DNA of 64,000 nt, taken from contig NC_044922.1 of NCBI RefSeq assembly GCF_003576645.1, positions 10,477,927 through 10,541,926 on the forward strand, given 5' to 3'. Position 1 is the stretch's first letter. Each line of letters opens with the position of its first letter. The DNA comes from Ipomoea triloba (taxonomy: Eukaryota; Streptophyta; Magnoliopsida; Solanales; Convolvulaceae). The notes under the pieces are model-generated. The model was not told where the DNA came from. It worked only from the letters and a program-made list of their open reading frames with translations, and did no database searches. Positions 22,297-61,339 of this stretch are shown one piece after another. A program made the translations under genes and the position numbers.

Positions 22297-22684
22297 AAGT
22301 TTCCACACTTAAACTTGCTTGTCCTCAAGCAAGCATACTTTTCTAAACACTAATCATATAAGCACCAAGGATAGTCCATTCTCTCATTTTCAATTGATCA
22401 AGCGATGTGTAGGTGTTCGGAGTTGAGTGGGTGAAATCCCCTACACTATCTACCAAGACCACTAAACTCATGCCGACCAAATGTAAGAAATATGCTAAGG
22501 AAGTTAAGTCTCAGGAGATAGATATAACATAAAAAGTTTTACACCTTTCAAGCATGCAAATGACAATAGGGTTTCACCTTGTATTTTCTAGGGGCCTCCA
22601 GCCGATCCGACTAGTGGGAATGATGTTCACCCCTTAGCCAATTTCCAACCTAACGCCAAAGCCCCATATTTAAGTGAGGGCAGG
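22297..22684 (-). mobile_element. 3' internal end of copy 0, left part
   Basis: Adjacent to the LTR, the minus strand reads ...gaggacaagcaagtttaagtgtggaaactt, an Athila-type polypurine region. The same segment occurs at 39003-39408. It is interrupted at 22685 by the complete Athila element and resumes at 34220. Confidence 0.75.
22680..22684 (+). repeat. target site duplication (left) of the Athila element
   Basis: gcagg, repeated exactly at 34215-34219. The uninterrupted site aagtgagggcagggacatgg exists at 39393-39412. Confidence 0.95.
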
Positions 22685-24508
22685 TGATAAGTGCATATTT
22701 GATCATATTTAATCCCCATATTTAAGCTTATTTGTCCACTAGATTGTATAAATTGTGTTCAATATAACCTTAATTTTCTTTACTTTGATTAATGTTTGCA
22801 ACAATCACCTTATTTGGAATAAAGTAAAGAAAATTAGGTCATATTGCATTTAATTGGATGATTTAGAGAAAACCAAAGTTTAATTTGTAATATTCATCTT
22901 TAATGAGTCATCCTAATGTTTTTAATTGCTTGTGGAAATATCAGGAAAATCATGAAGATGTAAATAATCATGAAGGGACAAAAACAAAAGTTAGAAGATG
23001 GATGATGATGAATTAAAGTGGAAGACAAAAGCAAAGAAGATTAGGTCCATTTTTAAGATCAGCCAATAATGGAGTCAAAAGAATGGTATTTTTAATGGTC
23101 TTGATCACAACAAGGACAAACCAAGGCAAAAGTGGAGCAAAATAATAATAAGCTGAAATTTACGCACAATTTGTCCACTGTTCGGTAATTCGACAATATC
23201 TCAGTCTAGGAATGTCCAAATTAAGTGATTCTTGAACCATTAGAAAGAAGACTTCAAGGACTACAACTTTTCCAGAGATACAAATTTTGTAATTCTGACC
23301 GAAAAATGGTCAAAAGCAGCCTTGAGGTCGAAGTTCCAGATTTCGCCCTAATCTGACCACTGCTCGGTATTTTGATCATATCTCATTATAGGAATATCCA
23401 AATGGGATGATTCAAACGGCATTGGAAAGAAGACTTCAAGAGCTTCATCTATGATTCAGGCCATAAACTCCAGATCTGGTAGAACATGGACTCCATGTGC
23501 CTTCAACACTCATATGCATTATACACCATGTTGTGGGCACCTCACTTTTCCAATTTCCCAACCACTACCCATCCTGCTTTGCCTCCTCATGAACAAGTAT
23601 AAATAGAGCTCTTCTTTGCAGGAGAAACACACCATTCCTCACCAATTCCTTCTATCTCCTCCCATTCTAGTTTTCATATTTTAGTTTTAGCGTTGTGTTC
23701 TTTTTCAAGCAAGAGTGTACGGAGGAAACTCCAAGAGTTTGGTCTTCAATCAATAAGTTTTCTTATTCCTTTTATCTCTTTACAATTTATCTACCATGCT
23801 TATGAATTTAAATATTGTTAGTTTGTTGCATTCCATTATGGATAGTGAGTAGTTCGATTATGGGTTTAGATTAGGGATCTATTGTTAATCTTGATGTTCA
23901 ATTTGTGATTATTGTATAAAGGGATTGAATTATTTACCTAGGGTTTATGTTGAATTGGGGATTAATTTCTACTTGTTATTAATTGATGGCCACAATTGAT
24001 TACTAGTTTAGGAGAGGGATTCATTACAACGAAAGTTGGGTGAAGATCTCGAGCCTTACCAATTTCAACCCAATTTTTCCTACTATGAGAATAGTGGTAA
24101 TTTGGGGGCTTACAATGCTTAGGTGCTTAAGGCTAAGATTGATGCATCACGAAAGTGGGGTAATCCTAGCCTAATTCTATTTATTGATTACGAAAGTAGC
24201 TGAATTGAATTCTTGTGCGCATTGCCCATAAATCCCTTGGTTAATTCTTCTTTCCCTAATTCTAAGTTCGTTAGAACATCAAGATTGCAATTCCCCTAAT
24301 CTGACCCATTCCTTTATCATACAGTTTATTCCCATAATAATCTGCTTTCCTTTTTCCTTCCATATCTCAGTCTTATTTACTTGGATTCTAGTTTATTCTC
24401 ATACTCTGGTGCCTAGAATTTCTTAATTCACATAAATACGTGCCATAGCCCCAATCCTCAGCGGAACGATATTACACCACATATTTACACTCACCATTTT
24501 ACACATCA
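22685..24508 (+). mobile_element. Athila 5' LTR
   Basis: Starts TGATAAGTGCATATTTG and ends TTTACACATCA. It differs from the 3' LTR by about fifteen visible substitutions and small indels (for example near 23112, 23185 and 24470). The transcription start should lie about 30 bp after the TATA box at 23598. Confidence 0.95.
23598..23605 (+). promoter_or_regulatory. TATA box of the Athila 5' LTR
   Basis: TATAAATA followed by gagctcttc. The same box is in the 3' LTR at 33303-33310. It defines the likely U3-R boundary. Confidence 0.75.
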
Positions 24509-24513
24509 AATTT

Positions 24514-24531
24514 TGGCGCCGTTGCCGGGGA
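24514..24531 (+). other. primer-binding site, tRNA-Asp
   Basis: TGGCGCCGTTGCCGGGGA, five bases after the LTR end, is a full 18-nt complement to the 3' end of plant tRNA-Asp, the primer used by Athila elements. Confidence 0.95.
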
Positions 24532-24717
24532 TTGGTTTATTTGGTTGTATTGTGTGGTTATTTTATTTCTAGCATTAGAAATAGAGAATTTTTAGGAGAT
24601 CAGGTTTTCATTCAAAAAAAAAAACAAAATTTCCAAGTTGTTTTATTTGCTCTAACCCATAACCAGTTTCTTCCAAAGGTGTTTGTGTTTGTGTTTGGCA
24701 ACAGGTTACCTCTTTTT

Positions 24718-26783
24718 ATGCGCACTAGATCTAGGGAGAGTGAAAATCTTCATTCCTTCGATCCAGATCTTGAGAGGAATTTAAGGAGGGAAAGAAGGGT
24801 GCTACGAGAGTGGCTTCGAGAGTTCCAGAACTTCAAAGAAGACATGGAGACCAGAGACAATAGCAACACCGAGCAGCTTACCCATGAGGATGTCAATACA
24901 CAGCATAATCCTAGGTAGAGAGAGGTTACTGAGGAAAACCATAGAGTTCGTGTCAACCCTCCAGTGAATAATGTTCAGAATCAGGCACAATACTTCATGG
25001 CCAATCCGAACCCGAATGCACATGTTGGGGAGGATTGGGAGTTCCTCACATGCAGTAGCGTCCTGCAGTTCAGCAGCAGGGCCAAGAAGTTGGGGTGCAG
25101 AATCTTCTCTACCAGATGAATCCCAACTTGTTCTACCAGTTTGCTCAGCAGTTTCCACAGGGAGTTCCTCCTATGTTTCGGCAGGGTGGTCAGCCACCCA
25201 TGGCAGCTCATCTGGCTCCTGAGTTTGATGAGGAGGATTGTATTGTTTATCCAGGAGTAGAGGCAAATAATTTTGAGCTGAAGACTTCTCTAATTCAGAT
25301 GGTCCAAGCAAATCAGTTTGGAGGTGCTCGAGTAGAGGATCCTAAAGCTCATGTGGTTCACTTCGACCGGATCTGCCAGACTATCAAGATGAATAGAATT
25401 CCCAGTGATGCCATCAAGCTGAGGCTGTTTCCTTTTTCCCTAAGAGATCAAGCATTGAGTTGGCTGAATTCGTTTCCAGCCAATCACTTCATTACTTGGG
25501 AACAGCTATACAAGGCATTCATGCAGGAATACTGTCCTCCGTCCAAGGCTGCTAAGCTTAAGAAGTAGATTCAGAATTTTCAGCAGTTTGGAAATGAGAG
25601 TCTCTACGAGGCTTGGAAGCGGTTCAAAGGGTTGAGGAGGCAGTGTCCTAAAAATCTGATGACTCCAGGAGATTTCATCTCGTCATTCTATGAGGGGTTG
25701 TTGGATAGTGCAAAGACCATACTTGATACCTCATCTGTTGGAGGTATTTTCATTGATATGGGTCCTGAATATGGCGAGCAGCTGATTGAGAGAATTACTT
25801 CGAACACTGCTTACTGGTACAATGAGAGGAGTGATCCACCGAAGAAAGAGAAATCGGCTGGGATGTTTGAAGTAGATGACAAGATGGCGATGCAGGCTCA
25901 GTTGGATTCCATCCAGCACATGCTCAAGCAGATGATGCAGGCTCCTACTCAGAGTGTTTAGGCTGTTACTCAGCCTTCATCAGTTCCTCATGGTTCTTAT
26001 GTTCCTACTCCTTATTCTATGCCACAGGTTCCTCTTATAGCCTGTTGTGCAGTTTGTGGTGGCAATCATGCTTCTTAGACTTGTTACCTGTTAGATCCTA
26101 GTAGTCAAGTTCCTCAGCCTAATGTAGAGCAAGTTGATTTGGTCGGTTACTCTAGACCACAGGGACAAGGGCAAGGTTATGGGAATTACCAGCAGCAAGG
26201 GAGAAATCAGTTTGTTCCCTCTTGGAACAATCAGGGCAATCAAGTGAGAAATCCACCACCAGGCTTTCAAGGAAATCAAGGGAACAAGGGAGGAAATCAA
26301 GGATCTCAATGGAGGAATAACCAGAATCAGAATCAGGGACAGTTTCACCAAGGCAATCAAGGCTATGGGAATAGTCAAGGCCAGGGATTCTCTAAACCTT
26401 CTCAGGATGTAGACATGCGGACTTTCATGAACACTATGATGGCTCAGATGGGCAAGCTACAAGTAGAGATAGAGAGTCTCAAGGCTCAGCAACAAGGATG
26501 AGGTAATCAGAATCCTAACCAAGCTTCGTCTTCAAGTGGTAGACTGCCAGCTAGTACAAAAAATCCAAGGAATCAGGTGAATGCAGTGACCACGAGGAGT
26601 GGATTATCTTTGAAGGATCCTCCCTTTCCTTCTGATGATCCAGTGCTTGGGAGAGTAGATGAGGAAACGGTAGCTGCCAGAGAGGAGGTTGAAGTAGAAG
26701 GTGATGACATTCCTGATAAGAACAAGGAGGAACCTGCAGGTAGTGCTAAAAGAAAAGCTCCCGTGCAAGAGGAAGTGCTCTGA
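24718..26783 (+). pseudogene. gag: Athila gag (multiple stops and frameshifts)
   Basis: It starts at the ATG at 24718. The charged N-terminus (RERRVLREWL) is followed by a Gln/Pro-rich stretch. A Retrotrans_gag domain spans about 25260-25560 (AHVVHFDRICQ, IKLRLFPFSLRDQALSWL, TWEQLYKAF). A CX2CX3HX4C knuckle lies at 26046-26084, then Gly/Asn/Gln-rich repeats at 26139-26400 and an acidic tail. Defects seen: stops at 24916, 25056, 25566, 25959, 26076 and 26499, and frame changes near 25035 and 26778. Most stops are TAG. The stop at 26076 falls inside the zinc knuckle. Gag would assemble particles and bind RNA, but this copy cannot. Confidence 0.85.
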
Positions 26784-27667
26784 GCAAGAGGCATGAGAAG
26801 AAGGATAAGAAGAGTGGTGACTCAATCGTTCCCTGCAATCTCTTGCCATTTCCACAGAGATTGTGGAGATCCAGGGAGACTGAGAGAGAGAACAAGTTCA
26901 AGATGATGCTAGACAAGTTGGAGATTTCTATGCCTTTCGTGGATGTAGTGACTCAGATTCCTTCATACAAGAAATTCTTGAAGGATATTCTGAGTAATAA
27001 GAAGAAGTTGGAGAAGAGTGCAGTGGTGGATCTCAGTGAGGGAGCTTTGACTTGTGCGGTTCTCCAACAGAAATTGCCTCCTAAGCTGAAGGATCTAGGT
27101 AGTTTCACCATTCCTTGTATCATTGGGGGATTTGTAGTGGGTAGTGCTTTATGTGATCTGGGTGCAAGTGTTAGCCTTATGCCATATTCTCTTTGTAAGA
27201 GGCTTAACCTGGGTAATCCCAAGCCTACTACTATGACTCTTTAGATGGCCGACCGCTCCATTAAGCACCCAGTAGGAGTTCTTGAGGACATCCCGGTGAT
27301 GGTTGATCAATATTTCATACCGGGGGATTTTGTGATTCTGGATATGGAGGAGGATACTAGGGTTCCTATTATCCTTGGTAGGCCTTTTCTAGCCACTGCT
27401 GGGGCTCTCATTGATGTGAAGAGGGGAAAGCTTGTGATGGAGGTGGCTGGCCACAAAATTGAATTTGATATCTTTAAGATGGCCAAACACCAACCCTCTT
27501 ACATTGATGAGTGTCACATGGTCGGAGTGTTGGAGCAGTGTAGTGCAGAGGTGGAGGAAGAGGAGCAAGAGGATTCTTCTGACACAGATCCAGAGGAGCA
27601 TGAGAATTCATCTGACATAGTTGTTTCCCTTGCTCCATTTGAAGTAGAGCAGGCTCCGAAGGTATAA
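26784..27667 (+). pseudogene. Athila aspartic protease region (two in-frame stops)
   Basis: It is in the same frame as pol. An upstream basic segment (SKRHEKKDKK) and a conserved LPFPQRL box lead to the protease core, with the active-site motif CDLGASVSLMPYS near 27150 and the ILGRPFLATAGA box near 27375. An acidic linker rich in Glu/Asp/Ser follows at 27545-27640. A TAG at 27242 replaces a codon that is Gln in the usual TLQLADRS phrase. A TAA at 27665 separates the protease from pol. Without suppression of these stops it cannot yield a Pro-Pol polyprotein. Confidence 0.8.
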
Positions 27668-30604
27668 TTGAAACCTTTACCTTCCAGTTTGAGGTATGCA
27701 TTTCTTGGCTCAAATTCTACTTATCCTGTGATCATTAGTTCCTCCCTGAAAGAGGAGCAAGTTGAGAGATTGTTAGCTGTGCTTAGAAAGCACAGAAGAG
27801 CTATTGGGTATACGATTGGGGATTTAATTGGCATTGATCCTAAGTATTGCATGCATAGAATTTATTTAGAGGGTGATGCCAAGCCCACTGTGGAGCCCCT
27901 TAGGAGGCTAAACCCCAATTTGAAAGATGTTGTTAAGAAGGAAATTTTCAAATTGCTTGATAATGATATTATTTACCCTATTTCGGATAGCAAGTGGATC
28001 AGTCCCATACATGTTGTCCCGAAAAAGGGTGGTATCACTGTTGTTAAGAATGAAAATAATGAGTTGATTCCTACTAGACTTGTCACTGTGCACTGTATGT
28101 GCATTGATTATAGAAAGTTAAACAAGTCTACTAGGAAGGACCACTTTCCCATCCTTTTCATTGACCAGTTGCTTGAGAGAATGTCCTGCAATGAATATTT
28201 CTGCTTTCTAGATGGTTTTTCAGGTTACTTTCAGATTTCTATCCATCCTGATGATCAAGAGATGACTACGTTCACATATCAATATGGCACCTATGCTTTC
28301 AAGCGGATGTCATTTGGCTTGTGTAACGCACCAGCTACATTCCAGAGGTGTATGATGGCCATTTTCTCAGAGTTTGTTGAGGAGATTATGGAGGTGTTCA
28401 TGGATGACTTCTCTGTCTATGGAAAGTCATTCGGTGAATGTCTCACTAATCTCGAGAGAGTGTTGTGCAGGTGTGAGGAGGTGAATCTTGTGCTCAACTG
28501 GGAAAAGTGTCACTTTATGGTTTCAGAGGGCATTGTTCTCGGGCACAAGGTTTCTGCAAGGGGAATTGAAGTTGACCCAACGAAGGTTGAAGTGATTGCT
28601 AAGTTACCACCCCCTAATTCTGTGAAGGGAGTGAGGAGTTTTTTGGGTCATGCTGGGTTCTACAGGAGGTTCATTAAAGATTTCTCTAAGCTTGCTAAGC
28701 CTCTCACCCATTTGCTTGCTAAGGATGTTCCCTTTGATTTTGATGACTCTTGTCTCGTTGCTTTTGAAAAGTTGAAAGACGCCCTTTGCCATGCTCCCAT
28801 TATTCAACCACCTGATTGGTCTTTGCCTTTTGAATTGATGTGTGATGCTAGTGACTTTGCAGTTGGAGCTGTGTTGTGCCAAAAGAAGGACAAAAGTTAC
28901 CTTGTGATTCATTACGCTAGTCATACGCTTGAGGAAGCTCAGGTGAACTATGCAACAACTGAGAAGGAGCTTTTGGCAGTGGTGTTTGCTATTGATAAGT
29001 TCAGATCCTACTTGACGGGGAGCAAGGTAATTGTTCATACTGACCATGCAGCTTTGAAATATTTGTTTCAGAAAAAGGATGCTAAGCCTCAGTTGATTCG
29101 ATGGATACTCCTGCTTCAAGAGTTTGATTTGGAGATAAGAAACAAGAAGGGCACAGAAAATGTAGTTGCGGATCATTTGTCCAGGCTTGAGGGACAGAAG
29201 CATGATGAGTTGCCCATTGATGATTCATTCAAGGGAGAAACATTGCTTGCGGTGAGTACCTCCGTGCCTTGGTTTGCAGACATAGTGAATTACCTGGTAA
29301 GTGGTTTTATTCCAAATGACTTTGATTACAATAAGAAAAAGAGATTTATTCCAAATGACTTTGATTACAATAAGAAAAAGAGATTTATTCATGATGTGAA
29401 AGATTATTTTTGGGATGAGCCACTAGTTTTTAAGAGATGTCCTGATGGTATTGTGAGGAGGTGCATTCCTGAGGAAGAGTTTGAGAGTGTTTTACATCAT
29501 TGTCATGCTTCACCATATGGGGGCCATATGAGTGCTGATCGTACTGCTTTAAAAGTCCTACAGTCAGGTTTGTTTTGGCCTACTCTATTTTCTACTGCTA
29601 AAGACTTTGTGAGCAGGTGTGGTAGCTGCCAACGGACTGGCACTATCGGTAGGAGACATGAGATGCCACAGAGAGAGATTTTAGAGGTTGAGTTGTTTGA
29701 TGTTTGGGGGATGGACTTCATGGGTCCGTTTCCTTCATCTTTCGGTAATGAGTTCATTCTGGTAGCAGTGGATTATGTGTCTAAGTGGGTGGAGGCGATA
29801 GCAACTCCAAAGAATGATGCAAAGACTGTGGTGGAGTTTGTGAAGAAGTATATTTTCTCCCGGTTTGGTATGCCAAGGTCCTTTATCACCGATAATGGGA
29901 CTCACTTTTGCAATAAGTTGTTGGAGAAACTTTTAGTTAAGTATGAGATTTACCACAGGTTGTCTACACCATATCATTCGCAAACTTGTGGGCAAGTTGA
30001 GCTGGCCAATAGAGAAATCAAGTCAATTCTTGAGAAGGTGGTGAGTCCTAACAAAAAGGATTGGTCACTAAAGTTGGATGATGCACTATGGGCGCTTAGA
30101 ACTGCGTTTAAGACTCCGATTGGTGTGTCCCCTTTCAAGCTTGTTTTTGGGAAGTCATGCCATTTGCCGGTTGAGTATGAGCACAAGGCATATTGGGCGG
30201 TTTCAAAGCTGAATTTGGATGAGAGTTTGTCTCGTGAGAAGCGGTTGTTGTCTTTGAATGAGCTTGAGGAGTTTAGGATGGATGCCTATGAGAATGCCAA
30301 GATTTACAAAGAGAGGACCAAGTACTTTCATGATAAGAAGATCCTAAGAAGGAGTTTTGAGCCAGGTGATAAAGTGTTGTTGTACAATTCCCGTTTGAAA
30401 TTGTTTCCTGGAAAGCTCAAGTCTAGATGGGCAGGACCGTTTAATGTGGTTGAGCAATCTCCATCTGGTGCGGTCACTATTGTTGGTACTACTGGCGATC
30501 CATTTATGGTCAATGGTCAGAGGTTGAAGTTCTTCAATGCTCCAGAATCGAAGGAGGAGGTGGCTAAAGTAGTTTGGGATCTTTTTATTCCCATCTACAC
30601 TTGA
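27668..30604 (+). CDS. pol: Athila pol: reverse transcriptase, RNase H, integrase
   Basis: One open frame of 978 codons without an obvious own start, preceded in frame by a TAA. The reverse transcriptase has [19 protein letters not shown], the [11 protein letters not shown] box and the catalytic FMDD (Asp246, Asp247). RNase H has [12 protein letters not shown] (Asp393), [11 protein letters not shown] and [10 protein letters not shown]. Integrase has an HHCC finger around residues 610-660 and a DDE core with Asp683 (WGMDF), Asp742 (TDNGTHF) and Glu778, spacing DX35E. A 13-residue direct duplication ([13 protein letters not shown]) sits between RNase H and integrase. All catalytic residues are present, which contrasts with the broken gag and protease upstream. 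It acts in cytoplasmic particles (cDNA synthesis) and at the nucleus (integration). Confidence 0.92.
29309..29386 (+). repeat. 39-nt in-frame tandem duplication in pol
   Basis: A 39-nt unit, attccaaatgactttgatta onward, is repeated back to back with no difference. It adds 13 residues between RNase H and integrase while keeping the frame. Confidence 0.9.
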
Positions 30605-30617
30605 TGACCATACGGTT

Positions 30618-30668
30618 AAGTCGAGCTAGCGACGTTAAACTTAGCGCTTCATGGGAGGCACCCCATGC
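30618..30668 (+). ncRNA. two-hairpin motif after pol
   Basis: Fourteen bases after the pol stop, gtcgagctagcgac (30620-30633) can form a 4-bp stem. The linker gttaaacttagcgctt follows, then catgggaggcaccccatg (30650-30667) with a 6-bp stem and an AGGCAC loop. The same two-stem design with different stem bases occurs at 56730, 59331 and (minus strand) 42371. Function is unknown. The fold is inferred from base pairing only. Confidence 0.55.
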
Positions 30669-32386
30669 TATCTTTCATTTTATTGCATTGTATTTTCTTC
30701 TTTATTTTTCTTTATACTTTTATTTTTGATATATCATGCTTTCACTTGTGCTTTCATGTGTATATTCTCTTGACTCTAGGAATGATACTAAGGAGTATGC
30801 TCAATTCCAAGAAGGCTTCATGATAATTCTTTGTCATAAGGGATTCATTAGGGGAGTCTCATCTACCTTCTCTACTCTTTTTAATTGTGAATAGTGCTTT
30901 ACTTGGTGTAGATAGTAGAGATTGTGCTCCTTGTGCTTATTGTGCTACCCTTTCCCCCTTATGCTTTATTTTCTTTCACATCGAGGACGATGCATTTTTA
31001 AGTGTGGGGGGAAGACTAAAATTGGGTAATTTTTGAAAATTTTTGAAACTTTGCTTGGATGACTCATTGTGCATAATGTTGGGTAAATTACCTTTCCTTG
31101 CTTGAAATTGTGATCACTCCCTCTTTGTTGGTTTGTGGTTTGTTTTGGTGGAACTTGTTGCAACTCATCTTGTGATTGATGAGCTAAGGGGTTACATGAT
31201 TGATCTATTCTCTTGCCAATAGCCTTGTTAGCCACTTAATAATTGAATCAATTCTTGATCTAGTGTGTTGTGCATTACTAGTGAAGGCTTATGTGAGATT
31301 CCGGTAATAGTTGTTTTGCTAGAACTTGCCTCATTACTCTCCAAGTGAAATCTAAGATTTGCATGTTTTGAAATGATATAGGCCATTTTTGTTTAACCCT
31401 TAGCCTTAAAGCCTACCCTGTTAATATGTGTTTACCCCTAGTTGTCCCCTTTTGAGCCTTTAGTTCACTAAATAAAGTGCTTAGCACTTGTTCCCCTTGA
31501 TGTTAGTCTTTCTTTGTTTTACCCTTATTAATTTTTCCCTTAACCTTTAGCCAAAAAGAAAAAAATATATCTCCCTTCCACCCTTGAGAGAATGTAGCAC
31601 TTGTTCAATAGTTAGAAGAGATTCATGTTGGAGCTTATCTTTGTTTACATCACTCTTGTTAGTCTTGTTTTAGTGTGGGGGTTTTGCTAAATAAATGGAG
31701 TTTGTTTGTTATTTCGAAAAAAAAAGTGAAAGTCTTTGAAAAGTAGAAAAAGAAAAAAAAATGAAGAAAAAGATGTTTGAAAAAGTTTGAAAAAGAAGTT
31801 TGAGATGATGAAAAGGGAAAGAAAAAAAAAAGGGAAAAGTGAATAAAAAAAAGTATATTCCTTTCTTGTTCTTTGTGTCAAATCCCCACCTTTTGAGAGT
31901 GTTGTCTAGTCTTCTTTGTAGAGTGCTCCTTATTGTCAAGATCTCTTCTAGCTTAGTTTGTGAATATGTGTGAAATTCTCTCATTTTGTTTACTTTCCCT
32001 ACCCCTTCTTTGTTAAAACCTTTACCCTTAGCCCCGTTATAAGCCGAATAAAGACCTATTTGATCATTTCATGTATTTCAAGGATCGATCTAATGGGAGT
32101 ATGAAGGGAAAGCCTATGGAATCTCATTAAAAGCCAAGTTTTTCATAATCCCAACTTAGCATTTGTGCACACTAGATTCTCACACATTTTAATGGTTTTG
32201 GTGTTTGGTTATTGGCTTGGGAATGGAACTCGTGAGCCAAGCTAAGGTGATTCTTGTAGCAAGTTGTTTTGTAGCAAGTTGGATATGTGGTTTGATAGGT
32301 TGTGCAATAAGGGAGTTTGGACAATTTCAATGCAATGATTTGCAATTTATTCTTTGTTTTTGCTTGAGGACAAGCAAAAGTTTAAG
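30669..32386 (+). other. Athila 3' internal region without env-like frame
   Basis: About 1.7 kb between pol and the polypurine tract. No open frame of meaningful length or envelope-like feature was seen. It contains A-rich and pyrimidine-rich low-complexity DNA (31715-31860) and the repeated phrases agtgtggggg (31000) and gtgtgggggttttg (31673), which echo the polypurine tract. Confidence 0.7.
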
Positions 32387-32397
32387 TGTGGGGGAGT
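32385..32397 (+). other. polypurine tract
   Basis: agtgtgggggagt immediately precedes the 3' LTR, the typical plus-strand primer of Athila elements. Confidence 0.85.
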
Positions 32398-34214
32398 TGA
32401 TAAGTGCATATTTGATCATATTTAATCCCCATATTTAAGCTTATTTGTCCACTAGATTGTATAAATTGTGTTCAATATAACCTTAATTTTCTTTACTTTG
32501 ATTAATGTTTGCAACAATCACCTTATTTGGAATAAAGTAAAGAAAATTATGTCATATTGCATTTAATTGGATGATTTAGAGAAAACCAAAGTTTAATTTG
32601 TAATATTCATCTTTAATGAGTCATCCTAATGTTTTTAATTGCTTGTGGAAATATCAGGAAAATCATGAAGATGTAAAGAATCATGAAGGGACAAAAACAA
32701 AAGTTAGAAGATGGATGATGATGAATTAAAGTGGAAGACAAAAGCAAAGAAGATTAGGTCCATTTTTAAGATCAGCCAATAATGGAGTCAAAAGAATGGT
32801 ATTTTTAATGGTCTTGATCACAACAACAAATCAAGGCAAAAGTGGAGCAAAATAATAATGAGCTGAAATTTACGCACAATTTGCCACTGTTCGGTAATTC
32901 AACAATATCTCAGTCTAGGAATGTCCAAATTAAGTGATTCTTGAACCATTAGAAAGAAGACTTCAAGGCAACTTTTCCAGAGATACAAATTTTGTAATTC
33001 TGACCGAAAAATGGTCAAAAGCAGCCTTGAGGTCGAAGTTCCAGATTTCGCCCTAATCTGACCACTGCTCGGTATTTTGATCATATCTCATTATAGGAAT
33101 ATCCAAATGGGATGATTCAAACGGCATTGGAAAGAAGACTTCAAGAGCTTCATCTATGATTCAGGCCATAAACTCCAGATCTGGTAGAACATGGACTCCA
33201 TGTGCCTTCAACACTCATATGCATTATACACCATGTTGTGGGCACCTCACTTTTCCAATTTCCCAACCACTACCCATCCTGCTTTGCCTCCTCATGAACA
33301 AGTATAAATAGAGCTCTTCTTTGCAGGAGAAACACACCATTCCTCACCAATTCCTTCTATCTCCTCCCATTCTAGTTTTCATATTTTAGTTTTAGCGTTG
33401 TGTTCTTTTTCAAGCAAGAGTGTACGGAGGAAACTCCAAGAGTTTGGTCTTCAATCAATAAGTTTTCTTATTCCTTTTATCTCTTTACAATTTATCTACC
33501 ATGCTTATGAATTTAAATATTGTTAGTTTGTTGCATTCCATTATGGATAGTGAGTAGTTCGATTATGGGTTTAGATTAGGGATCTATTGTTAATCTTGAT
33601 GTTCAATTTGTGATTATTGTATAAAGGGATTGAATTATTTACCTAGGGTTTATGTTGAATTGGGGATTAATTTCTACTTGTTATTAATTGATGGCCACAA
33701 TTGATTACTAGTTTAGGAGAGGGATTCATTACAACGAAAGTTGGGTGAAGACCTCGAGCCTTACAAATTTCAACCCAATTTTTCCTACTATAAGAATAGT
33801 GGTAATTTGGGGGCTTACAATGCTTAGGTGCTTAAGACTAAGATTGATGCATCACGAAAGTGGGGCAATCCTAGCCTAATTCTATTTATTGATTACGAAA
33901 GTAGCTGAATTGAATTCTTGTGCGCATTGCCCATAAATCCCTTGGTTAATTCTTCTTTCCCTAATTCTAAGTTCGTTAGAACATCAAGATTGCAATTCCC
34001 CTAATCTGACCCATTCCTTTATCATACAGTTTATTCCCATAATAATCTGCTTTCCTTTTTCCTTCCATATCTCAGTCTTATTTATTTGGATTCTAGTTTA
34101 TTCTCATACTCTGGTGCCTAGAATTTCTTAATTCACATAAATACGTGCCATAGCCCCAATCCTCAGCGGAACGACATTACACCCACATATTTACACTCAC
34201 CATTTTACACATCA
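32398..34214 (+). mobile_element. Athila 3' LTR
   Basis: Same start and end as the 5' LTR, 1817 bp against 1824 bp. Its end is followed directly by the right target duplication gcagg (34215-34219). Confidence 0.95.
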
Positions 34215-42370: not shown

Positions 42371-42421
42371 TTGGGACTGCCTCCCAAGTGCGCCATGGTT
42401 TTACGTCTCCTGGCCAGACGT
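42371..42421 (-). ncRNA. two-hairpin motif after ORF A, copy 1
   Basis: On the minus strand acgtctggccaggagacgt (42403-42421) forms a 6-bp stem, and ttgggaggcagtcccaa (42371-42387) forms a second stem of 5-6 bp. They are joined by aaaaccatggcgcac. The loop keeps AGGCA. Confidence 0.55.
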
Positions 42422-54893: not shown

Positions 54894-54911
54894 TGGCGCC
54901 GTTGCCGGGGA
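54894..54911 (+). other. primer-binding site, tRNA-Asp, copy 2
   Basis: TGGCGCCGTTGCCGGGGA, a perfect match to that of the full Athila element. Confidence 0.9.
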
Positions 54912-55129
54912 TGGCAAACGGTTTCGAATAGTGTTGACATCTTTGAAGTAGAATCTTAAGAGTTCTTGAATTGCTTTATTTTTGTTTGTTTTATTTTCTT
55001 GTTTTTGTTACTTAATTAGAGAAGTGAGCTTATTTATCTTGAACATATCTTGTGCCCACTTGCAACTACTTTTAGTTTCGAAATATTTGTTGTTTGTTAA
55101 GCTTGCGCAGGAAATTTTCTACAATCAAT

Positions 55130-55275
55130 CCATCGAAGCTTACAATGAGTGCTTATCCGTATCCCCATGGTTACCCATAGCTTACAATGAGTGCTTATCC
55201 GTATCCCCATGGTTACCCATACCATGGAAGACCTGCTTATCCGTATCCCCATGGTTACCCATACCATGGAAGACC
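55130..55275 (+). repeat. tandem duplications at the ORF A start, copy 2
   Basis: The segment gcttatccgtatccccatgg occurs three times at about 40-bp spacing, twice with the start codon. The first start (55146) runs into a stop after 11 codons. The second (55187) opens the long frame. Confidence 0.85.
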
Positions 55276-56721
55276 ATACACCAGAAACATTCCATCTCAA
55301 ACCTATGAACAACAACCACAGTACTATCCAAATCTTTATTGGTACCCACCATCACAACATACATACCCACCTTACCCAAATACTTTCACTTATCCTAACT
55401 ACGAGCCATATCCTTATGCTACATCCTATATGCTTAATTATGAGAGAATTGAGAAACCTACATACCAACATGGAGAGGAATCCCTTAGTTCAATAGCGGA
55501 GAATATTAACAATCGACTTATTCAAGTCATGAAGGAGATTGACCCAAGTTGTGAACCGACATTAAAGGCCACAATTCCTTCAACCGTTAAACCTCAAATT
55601 CATTATAACCCTCCGTTAAACCATCAACCTGAAAGACATTGGTATTCTCATTCTCACACCAATACTAGCTATTCACCCCAACCACAACCAAATGATAGAT
55701 ATTTCAATGAAACACCACCTTTTGTTCAAAGTTTCAACCAACCTATACCATCTTATGAGTACCTTCCACCGGCCAATGATGAAATCCAAATCTTGAAAGA
55801 AAAAGTAGAAATGTTCATACAAATGGCCAAGGAAGATACCATCAATCTACGAAATGAAATTAGAAGTGAAATGAAGAAAAATCTTGTCGCTCTCCGTGAG
55901 GAAGGACTTCCACTGGATGAAATCGAGACCAAAATGCTATCGATGTCGGAGGAGCTTATGAAGAGAATGCTACCAATGGTTGACGATCCTGTCACAAATG
56001 ACCACCCGGCAATGGAAACCAACCGGCGAGAGAATGACAAGATGAAAAAAATAATTGATGATGAAGAGGTGAGTGTTCAAGAATGCACAGAACTTGAGAT
56101 CCTAGTACTCCAACAAGTTTCAACTCTTCAGTTGAAGACTCAACAACGGGGAGAGATTGAGAGTGAAGACGAGGATAATATCGAAATAGTGTGGGAAGAC
56201 GAAAACCCGCACAAGGTAAAACTCTCACTCCAATTCTAATTAAAAGTTCTTATGATGTTTGTGAGGATGACTCCTTTACGATTTATAGTGATAATCTTGA
56301 TAAATGTGACAAATTTTCTCTTTGCTCATGGGAGTGTGATTCCTTGCGACTGTGTGATGATACTTTGGGGAGTGAGGATGACATTAAATCTTTTTATTCT
56401 TGTGAAAGTGAGTTCTGCGAGTTTGATGAATCGGGAGAAGGTGTAGGCACTTCACGAGAGATAGATAGTAGTGAGTGTGTTCACTGGGAAGCTTTTAAGG
56501 ACAACTTTTTGAGGGAAGGAATTTATAACAAGAAGGGAGAAGAGAGGCTTGCTATCCTTAAACAGCTTAGGGTAGTACCCCGTGTTTATTTATCAATACA
56601 ATATGTTTTCTCCTTCTGTGCTTTTGAATTCAAGGATGTTACCCACCTTGGGACATACCTTGAGGCTAAAGTTCATGGGACGCTTGGTCGGGTCCCAAAA
56701 TCTGTGTGCCTGGAAGGATAG
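55187..56721 (+). pseudogene. ORF A, copy 2 (one frameshift)
   Basis: The longest ORF A in the window, about 510 codons if the single shift near 56210 is ignored. Regions in order: Tyr/Pro/Gly/His-rich N-terminus with YPYPHGYPYHGRP repeats; a short helical segment (SSIAENINNRLIQVMKEIDPS) conserved in all copies; a Pro/Asn/Tyr-rich linker; a predicted coiled coil (residues about 205-265, EKVEMFIQMAKED, GLPLDEIETKML); an acidic box EDEDNIEIVWEDE; and, after the shift, an Asp/Glu/Cys/Ser-rich C-terminus ending 9 bases before the two-hairpin motif. No known domain. The position after the PBS suggests a Gag-like or accessory role. Confidence 0.6.
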
Positions 56722-56729
56722 GCCACACT

Positions 56730-56780
56730 ACGTCTGGCCAGGAGACGTAAAACCATGGCGCACTTGGGAGGTAGTCCCAA
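56730..56780 (+). ncRNA. two-hairpin motif after ORF A, copy 2
   Basis: acgtctggccaggagacgt (56730-56748, 6-bp stem), linker aaaaccatggcgcac, then ttgggaggtagtcccaa (56764-56780). It starts 9 bases after the ORF A stop codon. The second loop differs from copy 1 (ggtag against ggcag) while the stem is kept. Confidence 0.55.
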
Positions 56781-56984
56781 TGTTATCTTACATTTTCTTT
56801 CAGCTTTTCTTATTATCTATAGTATACTTTTCTTGATCATTATTTCAATAGTGTTTTTATAACCTTGGTTAAGCTAACAAGTACAGATCATAAACCCGAG
56901 AGTTACAAATTGCCGCAATCGATCGACGATCATCATCGTTAACAAAGGAAGGAAGGGAAACCAAGGTAAAATTTTGCACATCAC

Positions 56985-57135
56985 GCTTTCCACGCCTGCT
57001 ACCACGCGTGTAAGCAGGCGTGGAAAATTTCCAGTAAGCTGCCATGCCACTCACATGCGTGTGAGCTGGTGTGGAAACAAACCAAAAAGCTCCCATGCCC
57101 ACCACCACTCGTGGTGACGTGCGTGGACGGGCACC
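56985..57135 (+). promoter_or_regulatory. internal U3-like block, copy 2
   Basis: cacgcgtg and cacatgcgtgtgag palindromes with gtggaaaatttcca spacing, the same vocabulary and order as the LTR U3 (for example 60010-60085). It lies just upstream of a TATA-like box and the leader of ORF B. Confidence 0.55.
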
Positions 57136-57165
57136 AGATTTTCACGGACTTTTCGCGTGAAGTAG

Positions 57166-57172
57166 TTTAAAA
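57166..57172 (+). promoter_or_regulatory. internal TATA-like box, copy 2
   Basis: TTTAAAA, followed by ccctttccttgcttcatttcttc. The same sequence is at the equivalent place in copy 1. About 125 bp of leader precede the intron donor. Confidence 0.45.
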
Positions 57173-57297
57173 CCCTTTCCTTGCTTCATTTCTTCACCAC
57201 CATGAGCAAAGTCTCCCTCAAGCTGAAAATACACAACTCTAAGGCATTTCTTTCTAAGCTTTTCAACTTCTTTTCATCTTCCTAAGTCATTTCCAAG

Positions 57298-57909
57298 GTA
57301 AGAACATACTCTCTTTTGCTATTACTTACTTGAATGAAGAACTTACTCTCTTTGAAGCATATCTCCATGGGTTTTTTTTGTTTGAGATTTTTCTTGAGAT
57401 ATATTGTTATGAAATGACTTGTTAGACTTGTAATAGGCCTACATTGCTTCTATACACTAGAAATTCCATGTTTTACCATCTCTTTGTGACTAGATCTTGA
57501 AATTGTTTGATTTGGGCATTCTTTTGTCATAATGAGATCCTTGATGATATAGTGAGCATGGTGGGTAAAGTTTGCAACTTTCCTACTCTCTAGGCACTAC
57601 ATTATTGTATCTAACTTGTTATTTGGTCCAATTTTAACTTTCATATTTTCTCCATTTTTCAACCTCAAGCTAGTTTAGAGGAAGAAGATGAAGTTGACCA
57701 TATGTTGACCTTTTGACTATGAGTTGAGTATGGAATAGAATGAGCTAATCCTTGCATGTATATGATAGAATTGTTGATGAATACCAAAATGATGTTACAT
57801 GCAAGAAGTTTTTATGATCTTTTCTTTAAAATGTGCAATATTGTTCACAATCATGTTTAAAGAGGAAAATGTTTTTCCTTGCATTGTGCTTTGCTTGTCA
57901 ATGTTATAG
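57298..57909 (+). other. intron upstream of ORF B, copy 2 (612 nt)
   Basis: Donor ttccaag/gtaagaac (GT at 57298) and acceptor atgttatag/ga (AG at 57908-57909), T-rich inside. The ATG of ORF B follows six bases after the acceptor. Confidence 0.6.
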
Positions 57910-57914
57910 GAAAA

Positions 57915-59224
57915 ATGTCTTCTCCAATCGAATTTGCACAACAAATAGCTAGAATGCTCCAAAAGGGAAAGGCTCCTGAGGGAGAGAACAGTGCTAGAAA
58001 TGCAAAGACTACCTACATCGAAGTACCCACAGGAAATCAAATCCTGCTAATGACACCGACTATGCTTGGTAGATACAGGCAGCTTCTTAACTTCCCCATC
58101 GTGCAATGGAAATACGTTGATTTAACAGTTCTGGAAGATTTTGAATGTAAGTATGGACTGGAGAGGTTAATCGCTGAGCCTTATTGGAACAATTTGTTGA
58201 GCTGGAGGCAGGATACTTTCATTCCCTAGTCCATGAGTTTATTACAAGTCTGAATGTCGAAGGAGTGACCGGAGATCTCTACAGCCCGACTATCAAATTC
58301 CGGCTTTTCAACCAGGATTATTATATTTCGGCCAATCGCTTGGGTGCTCTCCTGGGATTCTATGAAGAAGATGACCAGTCAAAACACTGGTATCGAAGGC
58401 CAAGGCACGACTTTGGAGATAGAGACATCCCAAGAAAGTATTGGTCATTGATTGCAAGATCGGGAGTTGAATGGGTTGGGTCGAGAGTAAGAGTTTCTCA
58501 AATTGTAAGGGAGGATCTAAAAGTCTTATGGAAGGTAATTGCACACTCATGGGAAGGCAGGCCGGGGACTTATGATCGACTCTCCAAGGCGGAGCTATTC
58601 ATGCTTTGGAGTATGGACACAGGCCATTCTGTGAATATGAGCTCAATTTGCAAGAATCTGCTCATTGCGCAACAGCAAGAGTCAGCGATAGCAATTTTCA
58701 TAGGCCCATTGGTGACAATACTATGTGTCTCGCTAGGTCATCAAATGAAAATACATTGGTTTGAACACAGGCTGCAGGGAGCACACATTGTTCCCTTATC
58801 TCCCGAGGACGTCGCAAAGCTCCACTTGAGATATTTGGCGCAAACAAGGGACGATCATGAGATGGCGGGAGACCATACCGACACGCCAATGACATCTCCG
58901 GGATTTACACCCTCGCCGATGTCATTCCTTTCCCCATCTTCAAACGAGTTGTACTCGCCTGTGGACTCTTCGATGTATTCTCCACCACCACGAGAGCCTA
59001 GACCATCCGTACCTCCACCCCAAGCCGAGGAGCAAACTTCCAACCCTGAAAGCTACAACATCCCAAGTTGGTTTACCCCAGTCACCGATTGGAGATCCCT
59101 TCAGAACTTCCAATATCAATTGCACTTGGAGCAGATGCAGAAATTGGAAGAGATTGCAAGGGAGATAAAGACCTCAAGAGAACGTGAAGAAAGAAGGCAC
59201 CGGAGAAAAAGAGAAAAACAATGA
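57915..59224 (+). pseudogene. ORF B, copy 2 (ATHILA ORF1-like), one frameshift
   Basis: It starts with ATG at 57915 (MSSPIEFAQQIARML). The shared core includes YIEVPTGNQILLM, GRYRQLLNFPIVQW, YGLERLIAEPYWNNLLSWRQD, YSPTIKFRLFNQDYYISANRLGALLGFY, RDIPRKYW, KAELFMLWSMDTG and FEHRLQGAHIVPLSPED. A Pro/Ser-rich segment and a basic, Glu/Arg-rich C-terminal helix (EEIAREIKTSREREERRHRRKR) follow. A two-base deletion near 58228 breaks the frame between WRQDTFIP and VHEF. Ignoring it, the product would be about 435 residues. It resembles the ATHILA ORF1 family (function unknown). No enzyme motif. Confidence 0.6.
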
Positions 59225-59330
59225 TGATTTGTGTTGGATAATTCTAAAACTATGATTGCGGACAATCTTTTTGTTTCTATGTTTGTTTATATTTTTGGTT
59301 ATATTCTGTTATGTCTTGTTTTGCACGTTT

Positions 59331-59377
59331 CGTCTAGCCAAAGACGTTAAACGTGGCGCTCATGGGAGGCAACCCAC
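59331..59377 (+). ncRNA. two-hairpin motif after ORF B, copy 2
   Basis: cgtctagccaaagacg (59331-59346, 5-bp stem), linker ttaaacgtggcgctca, then tgggaggcaaccca (59363-59376, 4-bp stem, AGGCAA loop). It lies about 107 nt after the ORF B stop. Confidence 0.55.
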
Positions 59378-59781
59378 AAAATAAGGAGAAGAAGATACCA
59401 CTCCACCATCATCCAAGAAAACCAATCTTGAAAGGTATACTTTGAATTCTTCATTTCTTTAGCTTTACTCTGACCAAATTTTGAAGGGCAAGTACATACT
59501 GCACAAAATTTTAATAGGGATGCACATGAAGAGTTGCATGAGATTGTTATGTCGGATGTGATCTTACTAGAAATATTTCAGCCCAGTTTACACTTTTTAA
59601 GTGTGGAAAAGGGGCGTGTTTAGGACCCTTTGAACATATATCTTATTTCCTCCGTTCCTCATGGAAACATCGAGGACGATGTTTATTTTTAAGTGTAGAA
59701 AGGGTGTATGTTTCTTGAAATAGTTGATTGACTGAGTGATAAGGTATAGGAACTAGAGGGCGTGTTATTGCCAATACTATC
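59378..59781 (+). other. 3' untranslated region of copy 2 (interrupted)
   Basis: Contains acatcgaggacgatgt and two aagtgtgraaa phrases like weak polypurine tracts. It ends at ccaatactatc where copy 3 is inserted. Confidence 0.6.
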
Positions 59782-61069
59782 TGATAAGCGCCAAGGATAG
59801 CACTTATAAGGGGTCTTTATTAGATTAAAAGCGCATCGTTTTAGCATCCGATTACAACAATTGCATGCATTTTAGCTCAAATGCGATTAAAATCTTCTAA
59901 CAACATTTCTAGAAAGAGTTTTGAAGTATTTCACAGGTTGGAGAGGGATTTAAAGCTAAAATAGAGCAAAAGACAAACAAGCCGAAATGCAGTAGCGTCC
60001 CAAGCAGCCTCATACGCGTGTGGCTCGACGTGGAATTATTCCAGAGAGCCACCACGCCACTCACACGCGTGTGAGCAAGCGTGGTCGGGCCAAGGGCAAT
60101 TTTGGGAATTTGTCCCCTTTTTGTCACCTATATAAATCCCTTTTGCCCTAAACCTAAAAGAGGAGGAGACTAGATCAGAAAATTGTTAGAATAGGCTAGA
60201 ATAGATTTAGAGGGTTTTCTCCCCTCTTGGGAGAAAATTCCTTTCTTTCATAAGTTTTAGAATAGATCAAGGGCAAGAGATGAGATTGGATTTTCAAGAT
60301 CAAGGTTGTAAGATCCCCTTCTCAAAAGGGTGGTAACCATTCTCTTCATTTTCTAATTCAATACTTGTTTCTTTGAATTTTCCTTCCCTTTCTTGTTTCT
60401 CTAGTATGATAGAGTAGATTAAATATGGGATTGGTGGCCCCATGGTAGATCTATGTGGATGTTTAATATTATTGCTTTGATTTGTGAATTGCTTGTTTAT
60501 TGGATGTTGAACTTGTGTGGATGATGTTCCTCAAGCTTTGTGCCTTTTGTGGCCACATTAGGTAGCAAACCCAAAGGAAGTGAGTGTGTGCGCGATAGCG
60601 GCCACTCACGAGTCTAACTCACCCACATCTCCGCTCTTAGTCCGAAAGGACAAGATCCGAGAGGAGTGGTAGACAAAGTGTTTGATGAAATGTCCCAACC
60701 GAATGAGGATGTGGGAGTCCAAAGTGTGACGCCACTTGGTGATATGCCACGAACTCACTAGTCTATTCCACGACTTGCACTCGCAAAACTATCCAAAGAT
60801 AGACCACATGGAAAAGCCTAAAGCCCCAATCTCCACTTTACTCTTCTTTATTTTACACAACCACTATCAACCTTCCCCTTCTTACAAATGAATCCAACCA
60901 TTAGCACTCCTGTAACTCTTTCTCTTCAACCTCTTAGATGCCAACACACTAACTCGATTCCCATTCGTCATCCTTGAGAGACACGACACTCGGGGAGTCT
61001 TGACTCTTCGTTTTACCACCTTCCGTACCACTTCATATTCACCCTCACCCCATACTCACAATATTGTCA
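59782..61069 (+). mobile_element. copy 3 5' LTR
   Basis: TGATAAGCGCCAAGG to ATATTGTCA, 1288 bp. acgcgt palindromes at 60014 and 60065 precede the TATA box at 60129-60136 by about 115 and 64 bp. The end block gactcttcgttttacc is conserved in all family LTRs. Confidence 0.85.
60129..60136 (+). promoter_or_regulatory. TATA box of copy 3 LTR
   Basis: TATATAAA, downstream of the paired acgcgt palindromes. Equivalent boxes exist in the other family LTRs. Confidence 0.7.
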
Positions 61070-61072
61070 AAA

Positions 61073-61090
61073 TGGCGTCGTTGCCGGGGA
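61073..61090 (+). other. primer-binding site, tRNA-Asp type, copy 3
   Basis: TGGCGTCGTTGCCGGGGA, one mismatch to the tRNA-Asp complement, the same variant as at 9215-9232. Confidence 0.85.
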
Positions 61091-61339
61091 TGGCAAACGG
61101 TTTCAAATAGTGTTGACATCTTAGAAGTAGAATTTTAAGAGTTCTTGAATTGCTTTCTTTTTGTTTATTTGCTTTTCTTATTTTTGTTATTTGCTTGAAA
61201 AAGTGAGCTTATATTATCTTGAATATCTTGTGCTCACTTGCAACTACTTCTAGTTGCAAAATTATTTGTTGTTGGCTGAGCTATTGTGCAAGAAATTCTC
61301 TTTAATCAAACCTCTTGAAGCTTGCCAATAAGTGCTAAA

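Follow-up and report, generated by a model that had tools for sequence, protein, structure and literature searches.

The coremin motif, or xrRNA_C, which occurs in BNYVV and in further RNA viruses of plants and fungi, is described as a first hairpin with a GUC..GAC core and a loop obeying the rule YGAD or YGNNAD, a GUUAAAC spacer core and, immediately after it, a second hairpin that is conserved as structure only, yet is required for Xrn1 stalling (PMC10520033). In the same account a C and a U of the spacer (nucleotides 18 and 19), which were mutated together, are crucial, and the motif is placed mostly in 3' UTRs; one virus has it at the 5' end of each of its four 3' UTRs, and another around a stop codon (PMC10520033). 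In yeast, coremin-ended RNA is reported to be made by plant XRN4 as well as by Xrn1, while reduction of XRN4 in plants had no obvious effect on the BNYVV coremin RNA (PMC5869530). A second type, xrRNA_D (also xrRNA_LT), from the Tombusviridae and Luteoviridae/Solemoviridae, is described as possessing helices P1 and P2, conserved L1 and L2B and an essential pseudoknot between a loop and a downstream stretch, and in a subset the pseudoknot is immediately followed by a stem-loop (PMC6299227). Among plant LTR retrotransposons, conserved noncoding motifs have been described in Sirevirus, which belongs to the Ty1/copia lineage (PMC2829016).

The window analysed here, i.e., the whole 64-kb stretch of Ipomoea triloba DNA, holds a conserved structured RNA element in four copies, designated S1 to S4, whose sequences match the original prediction and each of which has a stop codon upstream. 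S4 (30620..30667, plus strand) lies in a pol-bearing Athila-type element (22669..34214, plus strand) in which LTRs (approximately 22669-24508 and 32381-34214 by BLAST bounds, 98.6% identical), a primer-binding site complementary to tRNA-Asp (24514-24530) and a pol ORF encoding reverse transcriptase, RNase H and integrase (27668..30604, plus strand; Pfam RVT_1, RT_RNaseH, rve and Integrase_H2C2) were all found. A tRNA-Asp primer-binding site is also described for the related Diaspora and Calypso (PMC1142308); the Athila label stems from the first reading of the sequence and does not here separate Athila from Tat. S4 follows the pol stop codon (TGA, 30602..30604, plus strand), approximately 1.7 kb before the 3' LTR, and consists of stem 1 (GUCG 30620-30623/CGAC 30630-30633), a spacer (GUUAAACU, 30634-30641), pseudoknot strands GCUA 30625-30628 and UAGC 30642-30645, and hairpin 2 (CAUGGG 30650-30655/CCCAUG 30662-30667).

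S2 and S3 are both located on the plus strand of a pol-less element. S2 (56730..56780) follows the ORF A region (55187..56721, plus strand), which comprises two overlapping ORFs of 350 and 176 aa in different frames, has no Pfam match and has nine homologues, two of these from Ipomoea triloba by name; its stop codon (TAG, 56719..56721, plus strand) is 10 nt upstream of the GUC of hairpin 1. The site is composed of stem 1 (ACGUCU 56730-56735/AGACGU 56743-56748), a pseudoknot (GCCA 56737-56740/UGGC 56756-56759) and hairpin 2 (UUGGGA 56764-56769/UCCCAA 56775-56780). S3 (59331..59377) follows ORF B (58184..59224, plus strand; a weak match to PF20167, under the family cut-off), whose stop codon (TGA, 59222..59224, plus strand) is 107 nt upstream of the GUC, and contains stem 1 (CGUCU 59331-59335/AGACG 59342-59346), a pseudoknot (GCCA 59337-59340/UGGC 59354-59357) and hairpin 2 (UGGG 59363-59366/CCCA 59373-59376). 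S1 (42371..42421, minus strand), in a second element, has stem 1 at 42421-42416/42408-42403, the pseudoknot at GCCA 42414-42411/UGGC 42395-42392 and hairpin 2 at 42387-42382/42376-42371, all on the minus strand. The surroundings of S1 and S2 are 81.7% identical over 2.4 kb, and since the two are diverged copies of one site, the four copies originally counted are all present but represent three distinct sites.

A covariance model, designated R1, was built from a training set of 24 sites that included S3 and S4 and excluded S1, S2 and all sites of the S1/S2 type. At thresholds up to E 5 this model finds exactly S1-S4 in the 64 kb, with matches at 59328-59381 (S3, E 5e-19), 30616-30670 (S4, E 7e-15), 42423-42367 on the minus strand (S1, E 4e-9) and 56728-56784 (S2, E 8e-8). 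With mismatches allowed, the hairpin 2 pattern alone occurs six times in the window against 2.5 expected and the linker pattern alone five times against 2.0, and in either case 5 of 100 shuffles were as high. The folding energies are unremarkable (z -0.46 to -1.58) and uninformative alone. Pairing of stem 2, as originally proposed, is present in the sites, although that of S3 is just 4 bp long next to an A-C mismatch, and stem 2 is absent from the lowest-energy fold of S3.

Covariation shows the loop of hairpin 1 to pair with the linker in what is predicted to be an H-type pseudoknot, which is then followed by hairpin 2. The parts of this fold are a hairpin 1 core of GUC/GAC (a single stem of 3-6 bp with a loop of 7-9 nt), a loop that is mostly GCYN, a linker that is mostly NRGC, an A-rich spacer of approximately UUAAAC, and the second hairpin. 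The linker had been predicted to be conserved, and it is indeed kept, but it constitutes one strand of the pseudoknot stem, which had been missed. Across 73 unique sites the pseudoknot is 96.2% paired in register and at most 52.7% when slid; its outermost pair is A-U in 49, G-C in five, C-G in five, U-A in three and G-U in five sites and is unpaired in six, while the next pair is C-G in 33 and U-A in 32. Double changes include GCCA/UGGC, GCUA/UAGC, GCUC/GAGC, GCUG/CAGC, GCUU/AAGC and GCAU/AUGC. In an alignment of 30 sequences, 96.7% of the pseudoknot cells are paired and the covariation score is 0.271 against 0.157 for shuffled alignments, a value reached by none of 500 shuffles.

The compensating changes proposed for the stems are likewise upheld, with a covariation score of 0.173 against 0.101 shuffled and none of 500 shuffles as high, while a second statistic, the number of pairs in which both partners have changed, was reached by 271 of 500 shuffles. 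The prediction was to be abandoned if a deeper set lacked covariation, and the covariation found there is strong by these shuffle-based scores, which are not those of R-scape. The six GUC/GAC columns are invariant in all 30 rows, which were loosely pre-filtered for the GUC/GAC type, and the remaining pairs of hairpins 1 and 2 covary in the same alignment. Hairpin 2 is paired in 92.2% of cells, with double changes at three pairs and weaker pairing in S3; the loosest pairs are the outermost (78%) and innermost (75%) of hairpin 1 and the third of hairpin 2 (66% paired). A kissing loop, in which GCY of loop 1 would pair with GGY of loop 2, was also considered and replaced by the covarying pairing of loop 1 with the linker; it has no support of its own since GGY of loop 2 hardly varies and was partly fixed by the search patterns.

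Identity within the motif averages 0.78, against 0.51 in the upstream flank, 0.52 in the downstream flank and 0.52 in shuffled sequence, a comparison based on the 1770 of 1891 site pairs whose downstream flank similarity did not exceed the shuffled value plus 2 sd. The motif has thus been conserved from family to family even where the flanks are no more similar than expected by chance, a pattern that we read as selection.

When set beside coremin, the element displays the core GUC...GACGUUAAAC together with a second hairpin directly downstream, in the same layout, and, likewise in a plant host, it lies at the beginning of the 3' UTR or close to it. GUUAAAC is exact in 27 of 71 unique sites, a count that rises to 51 of 71 when one mismatch is tolerated. 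Where coremin has its crucial spacer C and U, the C is retained at 65 of 71 sites, while the base after it is U in 13 of 71. The loop of 7-9 nt, GCYN, pairs with the linker, whereas that of coremin is YGAD/YGNNAD; one of 71 loops reads YG...AD from end to end and 13 of 71 start with YG. Moreover, no hairpin 1 with a YGNNAD hexaloop plus GUUAAAC spacer occurs in the whole genome, and no tetraloop coremin form in 358,577 bases of retrieved sequence, where fifteen YGNNAD hairpins are present in other sequence and without the spacer. GCGC and the hairpin 2 loop AGGCA are nearly invariant, both partly fixed by the search patterns, in contrast to the unconserved sequence of the second coremin hairpin, and the element resides in an LTR retrotransposon, where stalling of Xrn1/XRN4 is putative. 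Because the published loop rule is not obeyed, we call the motif coremin-like and not a member of coremin.

The element resembles xrRNA_D in the pairing of its apical loop with a downstream stretch, in its occurrence between ORFs and in 3' UTRs, and in the stem-loop that follows the pseudoknot in a subset of xrRNA_D. It differs in that the two-helix P1/P2 arrangement with conserved L1, which in xrRNA_D is located between P1 and P2, and L2B was not seen in a comparison by description, in which hairpin 1 reads as a single stem. The Sirevirus motifs are similarly conserved and noncoding in a plant LTR retrotransposon, albeit of the Ty1/copia lineage. No Rfam family matched the window at its gathering score, and at a lax threshold S3 had two matches (E 1.1 and 5) and S4 none. 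Sequence-string and topic searches of the literature, based mostly on result listings, found no report of the motif, nor any retrotransposon with a described xrRNA.

Pattern searches of one genome, that of Ipomoea triloba (462 Mb), returned 665+638 = 1303 matches to GGCGC..TGGGAGGYA against 2+4 = 6 for the reversed pattern, 252+258 against 7+3 for a second pattern and 346+330 against 0+0 for a third. Strict patterns gave no match in a viral contig collection and none in a genome contig collection; a lax pattern matched at least 120 loci (L001-L120) among the matches listed for the viral contigs, which were regarded as chance and left unused. As for pol in the viral contig collection, one stretch fits a pattern and none is a relative. 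In a sample chosen by pol only, the motif directly follows pol in 30 of 40 copies, as judged by match to the model, and is absent from nine of 40 pol flanks, so that it appears dispensable in some lineages. It also lies downstream of ORF A and ORF B in pol-less relatives, on the sense strand. This sense orientation downstream of ORFs, together with compensated pairing and conservation across diverged flanks, bears out the original prediction of a cis-acting RNA element common to the pol-bearing Athila-type element and its pol-less relatives. Such sharing might suggest a packaging, dimerisation or reverse-transcription signal bound by Gag or another element protein, as pol-less elements would have to be mobilised in trans, and the near-invariant, palindromic GCGC and AGGCA may point to a partner beyond the fold. 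This function is nevertheless quite unlikely, given that the motif follows ORF ends instead of occupying one fixed position in the RNA and that several loci have two sites per element.

Placement relative to stop codons is narrow: among 70 unique sites, 37 were scorable, and in 36 of these the motif starts 9-21 nt past the stop, be it that of ORF A, pol or another frame. The stops are mixed (TAG 19, TGA 14, TAA 4) and the C-termini before the motif differ. TAG stands at an S2-like distance in 16 of 18 rows of the S1/S2 type, the other two (L136 and L158) having no open frame there. For the ORF B type, the nearest long frame is 87-132 nt away in nine rows and 202-206 nt in two. In the ORF A type (S2) the stem of the H-type pseudoknot begins 8 nt past the TAG, which resembles the readthrough pseudoknot of murine leukaemia virus, and H-type readthrough and frameshift pseudoknots share the compact fold, the A-rich loop 3 and the proximity to a stop codon. 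Readthrough pseudoknots are, however, followed by a conserved in-frame ORF, whereas the in-frame extension here is 0-61 codons without pattern at the 37 sites (1-9 codons at 14 of them, 0 in three pol-ending sites), the type of stop and the spacing vary, and the second hairpin is conserved. Readthrough was rejected as a general explanation on these extension lengths and is most improbable.

The same spacing after three different stop codons and varied C-termini would suit an mRNA-stability element that, from its place directly behind the stop and through a bound protein or an effect on termination, shields a long 3' UTR from nonsense-mediated decay with no exonuclease stop, much as the Rous sarcoma virus stability element does, and the pol and ORF A messages would indeed carry long 3' UTRs. 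The recurrence of the motif after ORF B, much nearer the 3' end and farther from the stop, argues against such a shield, as does the pseudoknot with a coremin core, for which we know of no counterpart among stability shields; we regard this explanation as unlikely. A translational role, either as a roadblock to ribosomes after the stop or as an aid to re-initiation at the next ORF, finds a precedent in coremin-type RNA, which is described as bringing scanning ribosomes to a halt in extracts of reticulocytes and of wheat germ (PMC10520033). Furthermore, the linker of the S1/S2 type contains an ATG in good context, which in S2 is in frame with ORF A; other types, however, have GTG or no such triplet there, and the motif is present after the last ORF too, making this role distinctly improbable.

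The best-supported candidate function is to stall XRN4 close to the 5' end of the 3' UTR in the manner of coremin, to which we give about an even chance. A coremin-like exoribonuclease block is accordingly our candidate for an element that previously had no named function. Element mRNA, once decapped or cleaved through silencing, nonsense-mediated decay or co-translational decay, would be entered from its 5' end by XRN4, which would remove the coding part and halt at hairpin 1. The product would be a stable 5'-monophosphate RNA beginning just past the stop codon, with LTR sequences and the polypurine tract still attached, along with whatever ORF lies downstream. The footprint of a terminating ribosome reaches about the position of the motif, and the knot, lying near its edge, could remain folded during translation. 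The trapped RNA might serve as messenger for ORF B, as a decoy for XRN4, in interference with silencing or in protection of the template.

Seen more broadly, Athila-type elements may possess their own class of pseudoknotted xrRNA after their ORFs, turning XRN4 decay into stable subgenomic RNAs, which, going by our literature searches, would be the first outside RNA viruses; one plant genome holds more than a thousand matches to the pattern. We consider this reading somewhat short of an even bet. If XRN4 is blocked, retrotransposon RNA would share the anti-decay device of plant RNA viruses, and a downstream ORF might be expressed without splicing or an internal promoter. It would then be asked whether plant viruses and retrotransposons exchanged this structure or converged on it. 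Even without an exonuclease block, a plant retrotransposon lineage carries at the ends of its ORFs a conserved RNA fold that is supported by covariation.

All four two-hairpin sites of the original prediction are present in the window at the positions claimed: S4 (30620..30667, plus strand) after pol, S2 (56730..56780, plus) after ORF A, S3 (59331..59377, plus) after ORF B, and S1 (42371..42421, minus) in a second element. All four are real, although only three are distinct (after pol, after ORF A and after ORF B), since two related elements (81.7% identity over 2.4 kb) each hold a copy of one and the same site as S1 and S2. A covariance model trained on 24 sites, none of the S1/S2 type (drawn from 46 distinct sequences after setting aside the 20 rows of the S1/S2 type and two more), returned exactly four places in the window, S1 and S2 among them, the latter being recovered at E-values of 4e-9 and 8e-8, respectively, though their type was untrained. 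In the S1/S2-type linker, an ATG in good context starts a short hydrophobic frame of about 35 codons in S2 (56755-56860) and 31 codons in S1 (42396-42300, minus strand), which is shorter in some other copies; the other motif types seen carry GTG or nothing at this place.

The window (G000:C7:10477927-10541926, in a genome of 462 Mb) holds a pol-bearing Athila-type element (22669..34214, plus; pol ORF 27668..30604) with LTRs that are 98.6% identical, a tRNA-Asp primer-binding site, and reverse transcriptase, RNase H and integrase domains. Polypurine-tract-like strings of the TTTAAGTGTGGGGG type are located between its pol end and 3' LTR at 30997, 31668 (with two mismatches to the search pattern) and 32381. 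The pol-less relative, whose primer-binding site is at 54894, carries ORF A (55187..56721) and ORF B (58184..59224); a Pfam search returned no match for ORF A and a weak, below cut-off match to PF20167 for ORF B. ORF A (here 55187-56239) opens with a Tyr/Pro-rich stretch, and nine relatives were found, two of them named in Ipomoea triloba. Past S3, a stretch resembling the LTR of the pol-less element has a further primer-binding site (61073) and sequence similar to ORF A (61613-62761) 3' of it, so that 54894-62764 looks as if two elements in tandem had one LTR in common. At 57298-57917, 5' of ORF B, an intron-like stretch was seen by eye (donor AAG/GTAAGAA at 57298, acceptor TTATAG ending at 57909) directly ahead of an ATG at 57915; ORF B may have a spliced leader of its own.

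Side-by-side comparison of the families shows that the bases of loop 1 past its conserved GC co-vary with those ahead of the linker GC. Covariation was counted in 30 of 51 representatives, 14 S1/S2-type and five short-linker rows being omitted because MAFFT sets them out of register, together with two others. Pairing in these 30 sequences reaches 96.7% for the loop-linker helix, with a covariation of 0.271 (0.157 when shuffled), and 92.2% for the structure as a whole, with a covariation of 0.246 (0.112 when shuffled). None of 500 shuffles reached the pairing or covariation values of either; two less striking measures, namely pairs in which both bases have changed and further pair types, were reached by 41 and 20, and by 7 and 32, of the 500 shuffles. 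In a second count, for which a script parsed 73 unique sites from every type, the pseudoknot is 96.2% paired in register and at most 52.7% when slid, and all four Watson-Crick pairs are seen at its outermost pair. Its outer two pairs are formed in 93.2% of cases (70.5% on average and 78.8% at most under permutation); the inner GC/GC pairs carry little information, being partly fixed by the search. Permutation counts overstate independence because the copies are related, but the double changes recur across pol lineages that share about 50-65% identity with the pol of the window. Looser pairs among the 73 sites are the outermost (78%) and innermost (75%) of hairpin 1 and the third of hairpin 2 (66%). 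A conserved pseudoknot-plus-hairpin is located 3' of the ORFs of these elements. Base pairing would be possible between the hairpin 2 loop GGCA(AC) (e.g., 59367-59372) and the UUGCC within the tRNA-Asp primer-binding site (24514-24530); covariation is uninformative on it, both being nearly constant in what was seen.

Selection was assessed with 62 distinct motifs and their flanks (1891 pairs), in 1770 of which the similarity of the downstream flanks does not exceed that of shuffled sequence by more than two standard deviations. In these 1770 pairs the motif is 78% identical (51% when shuffled), a value somewhat raised because motifs were found by pattern, whereas flank identity is 51% upstream and 52% downstream (52% when shuffled), from which it follows that the element is kept and its surroundings are not. 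An open frame of at least 60 codons ends within 60 nt upstream of hairpin 1 in 37 of 70 unique sites (stop codons TAG in 19, TGA in 14 and TAA in 4), and the GUC of hairpin 1 begins 9-21 nt past the stop in 36 of these (10 nt in 16, 21 nt in 8) and 57 nt past it in one, distances that a recount confirmed. The remaining 33 lack such a frame and are an unsorted mixture of S3-like sites, decayed copies and short loci; among S3-like rows the closest long frame upstream stops 87-132 nt short of the match in nine and 202-206 nt short of it in two.

Across the genome, three overlapping motif patterns gave 1303, 510 and 676 matches, whereas their reversed versions gave 6, 10 and 0. Since each pattern selects on parts of the motif, an independent sample was drawn by pol alone, for which the genome was searched with the last 201 pol residues (153 matches reported) and the flanks of 40 matches, hand-picked down the ranking, were taken (20 flanks of about 330 nt and 20 of 120-200 nt). 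The motif was present in 30 of the 40 (E 1.3e-6 or better), one flank (L218) runs into N within it, and it was absent from nine. Among the latter, L226 has a flank unlike all others, L231 retains a relic of hairpin 2, and L236 and L238 have a hairpin 1-like hairpin alone (E 0.1). The other five, L228, L230, L233, L235 and L237, form a related lineage with mutually alike flanks (pol 61-63% identical) and no motif within 200 nt 3' of the pol match; an AACATTG..CAATGTT-like inverted repeat ahead of a purine-rich tract stands in its stead. In several elements the motif is present twice in the same orientation, with 2.0-3.6 kb between the two sites. In some, the motif or its 3' half is in tandem, 42-48 bp apart, for example at L168 (G000:C2:15872600-15873100), at L131, and at G000:C2:16360141 and 16360183; according to PMC10520033, sites of the plant-virus RNA coremin are also repeated in some viruses.

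Coremin is an Xrn1-resistant RNA with a hairpin 1, a conserved spacer and a structural hairpin 2, which is found mostly in 3' UTRs and can also stall scanning ribosomes (PMC10520033). Among the listed papers that contain the coremin string GACGUUAAAC, its DNA form or the complement of either, this is by title the sole one of its kind. The retrotransposon motif resembles coremin in its GUC, GAC, second hairpin and placement and, in part of the sites, in its GUUAAAC spacer, which is exact in 27 of 71 sites and within one mismatch in 51. In contrast, the coremin loop rule is not followed, one of two essential spacer bases is mostly not kept (U in 13 of 71 sites), and the genome contains no YGNNAD hexaloop with the spacer. 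The element is therefore not classed as a member of xrRNA_C; our reading is that its loop-linker pseudoknot would stand in for the loop-spacer contact proposed for coremin. In another plant-virus class, xrRNA_D, the exonuclease block can hinge on an apical-loop pseudoknot (PMC6299227). Among the matches listed in literature searches that covered few subscription journals, none reports a retrotransposon with an xrRNA or with a motif like coremin.

By analogy with these viral RNAs, the motif would stop a 5'-3' exonuclease, most likely XRN4, directly 5' of hairpin 1. What counts against this is that lowered XRN4 had no obvious effect on BNYVV coremin RNA in plants (PMC5869530). Furthermore, an exonuclease block does not account for the near-invariant GCGC and AGGCA, which may reflect protein binding or an additional contact. 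On balance, we give about even chances to the motif acting in these retrotransposons as a block to a 5'-3' exonuclease, most likely XRN4, in which case the remaining RNA would begin shortly past the stop codon.
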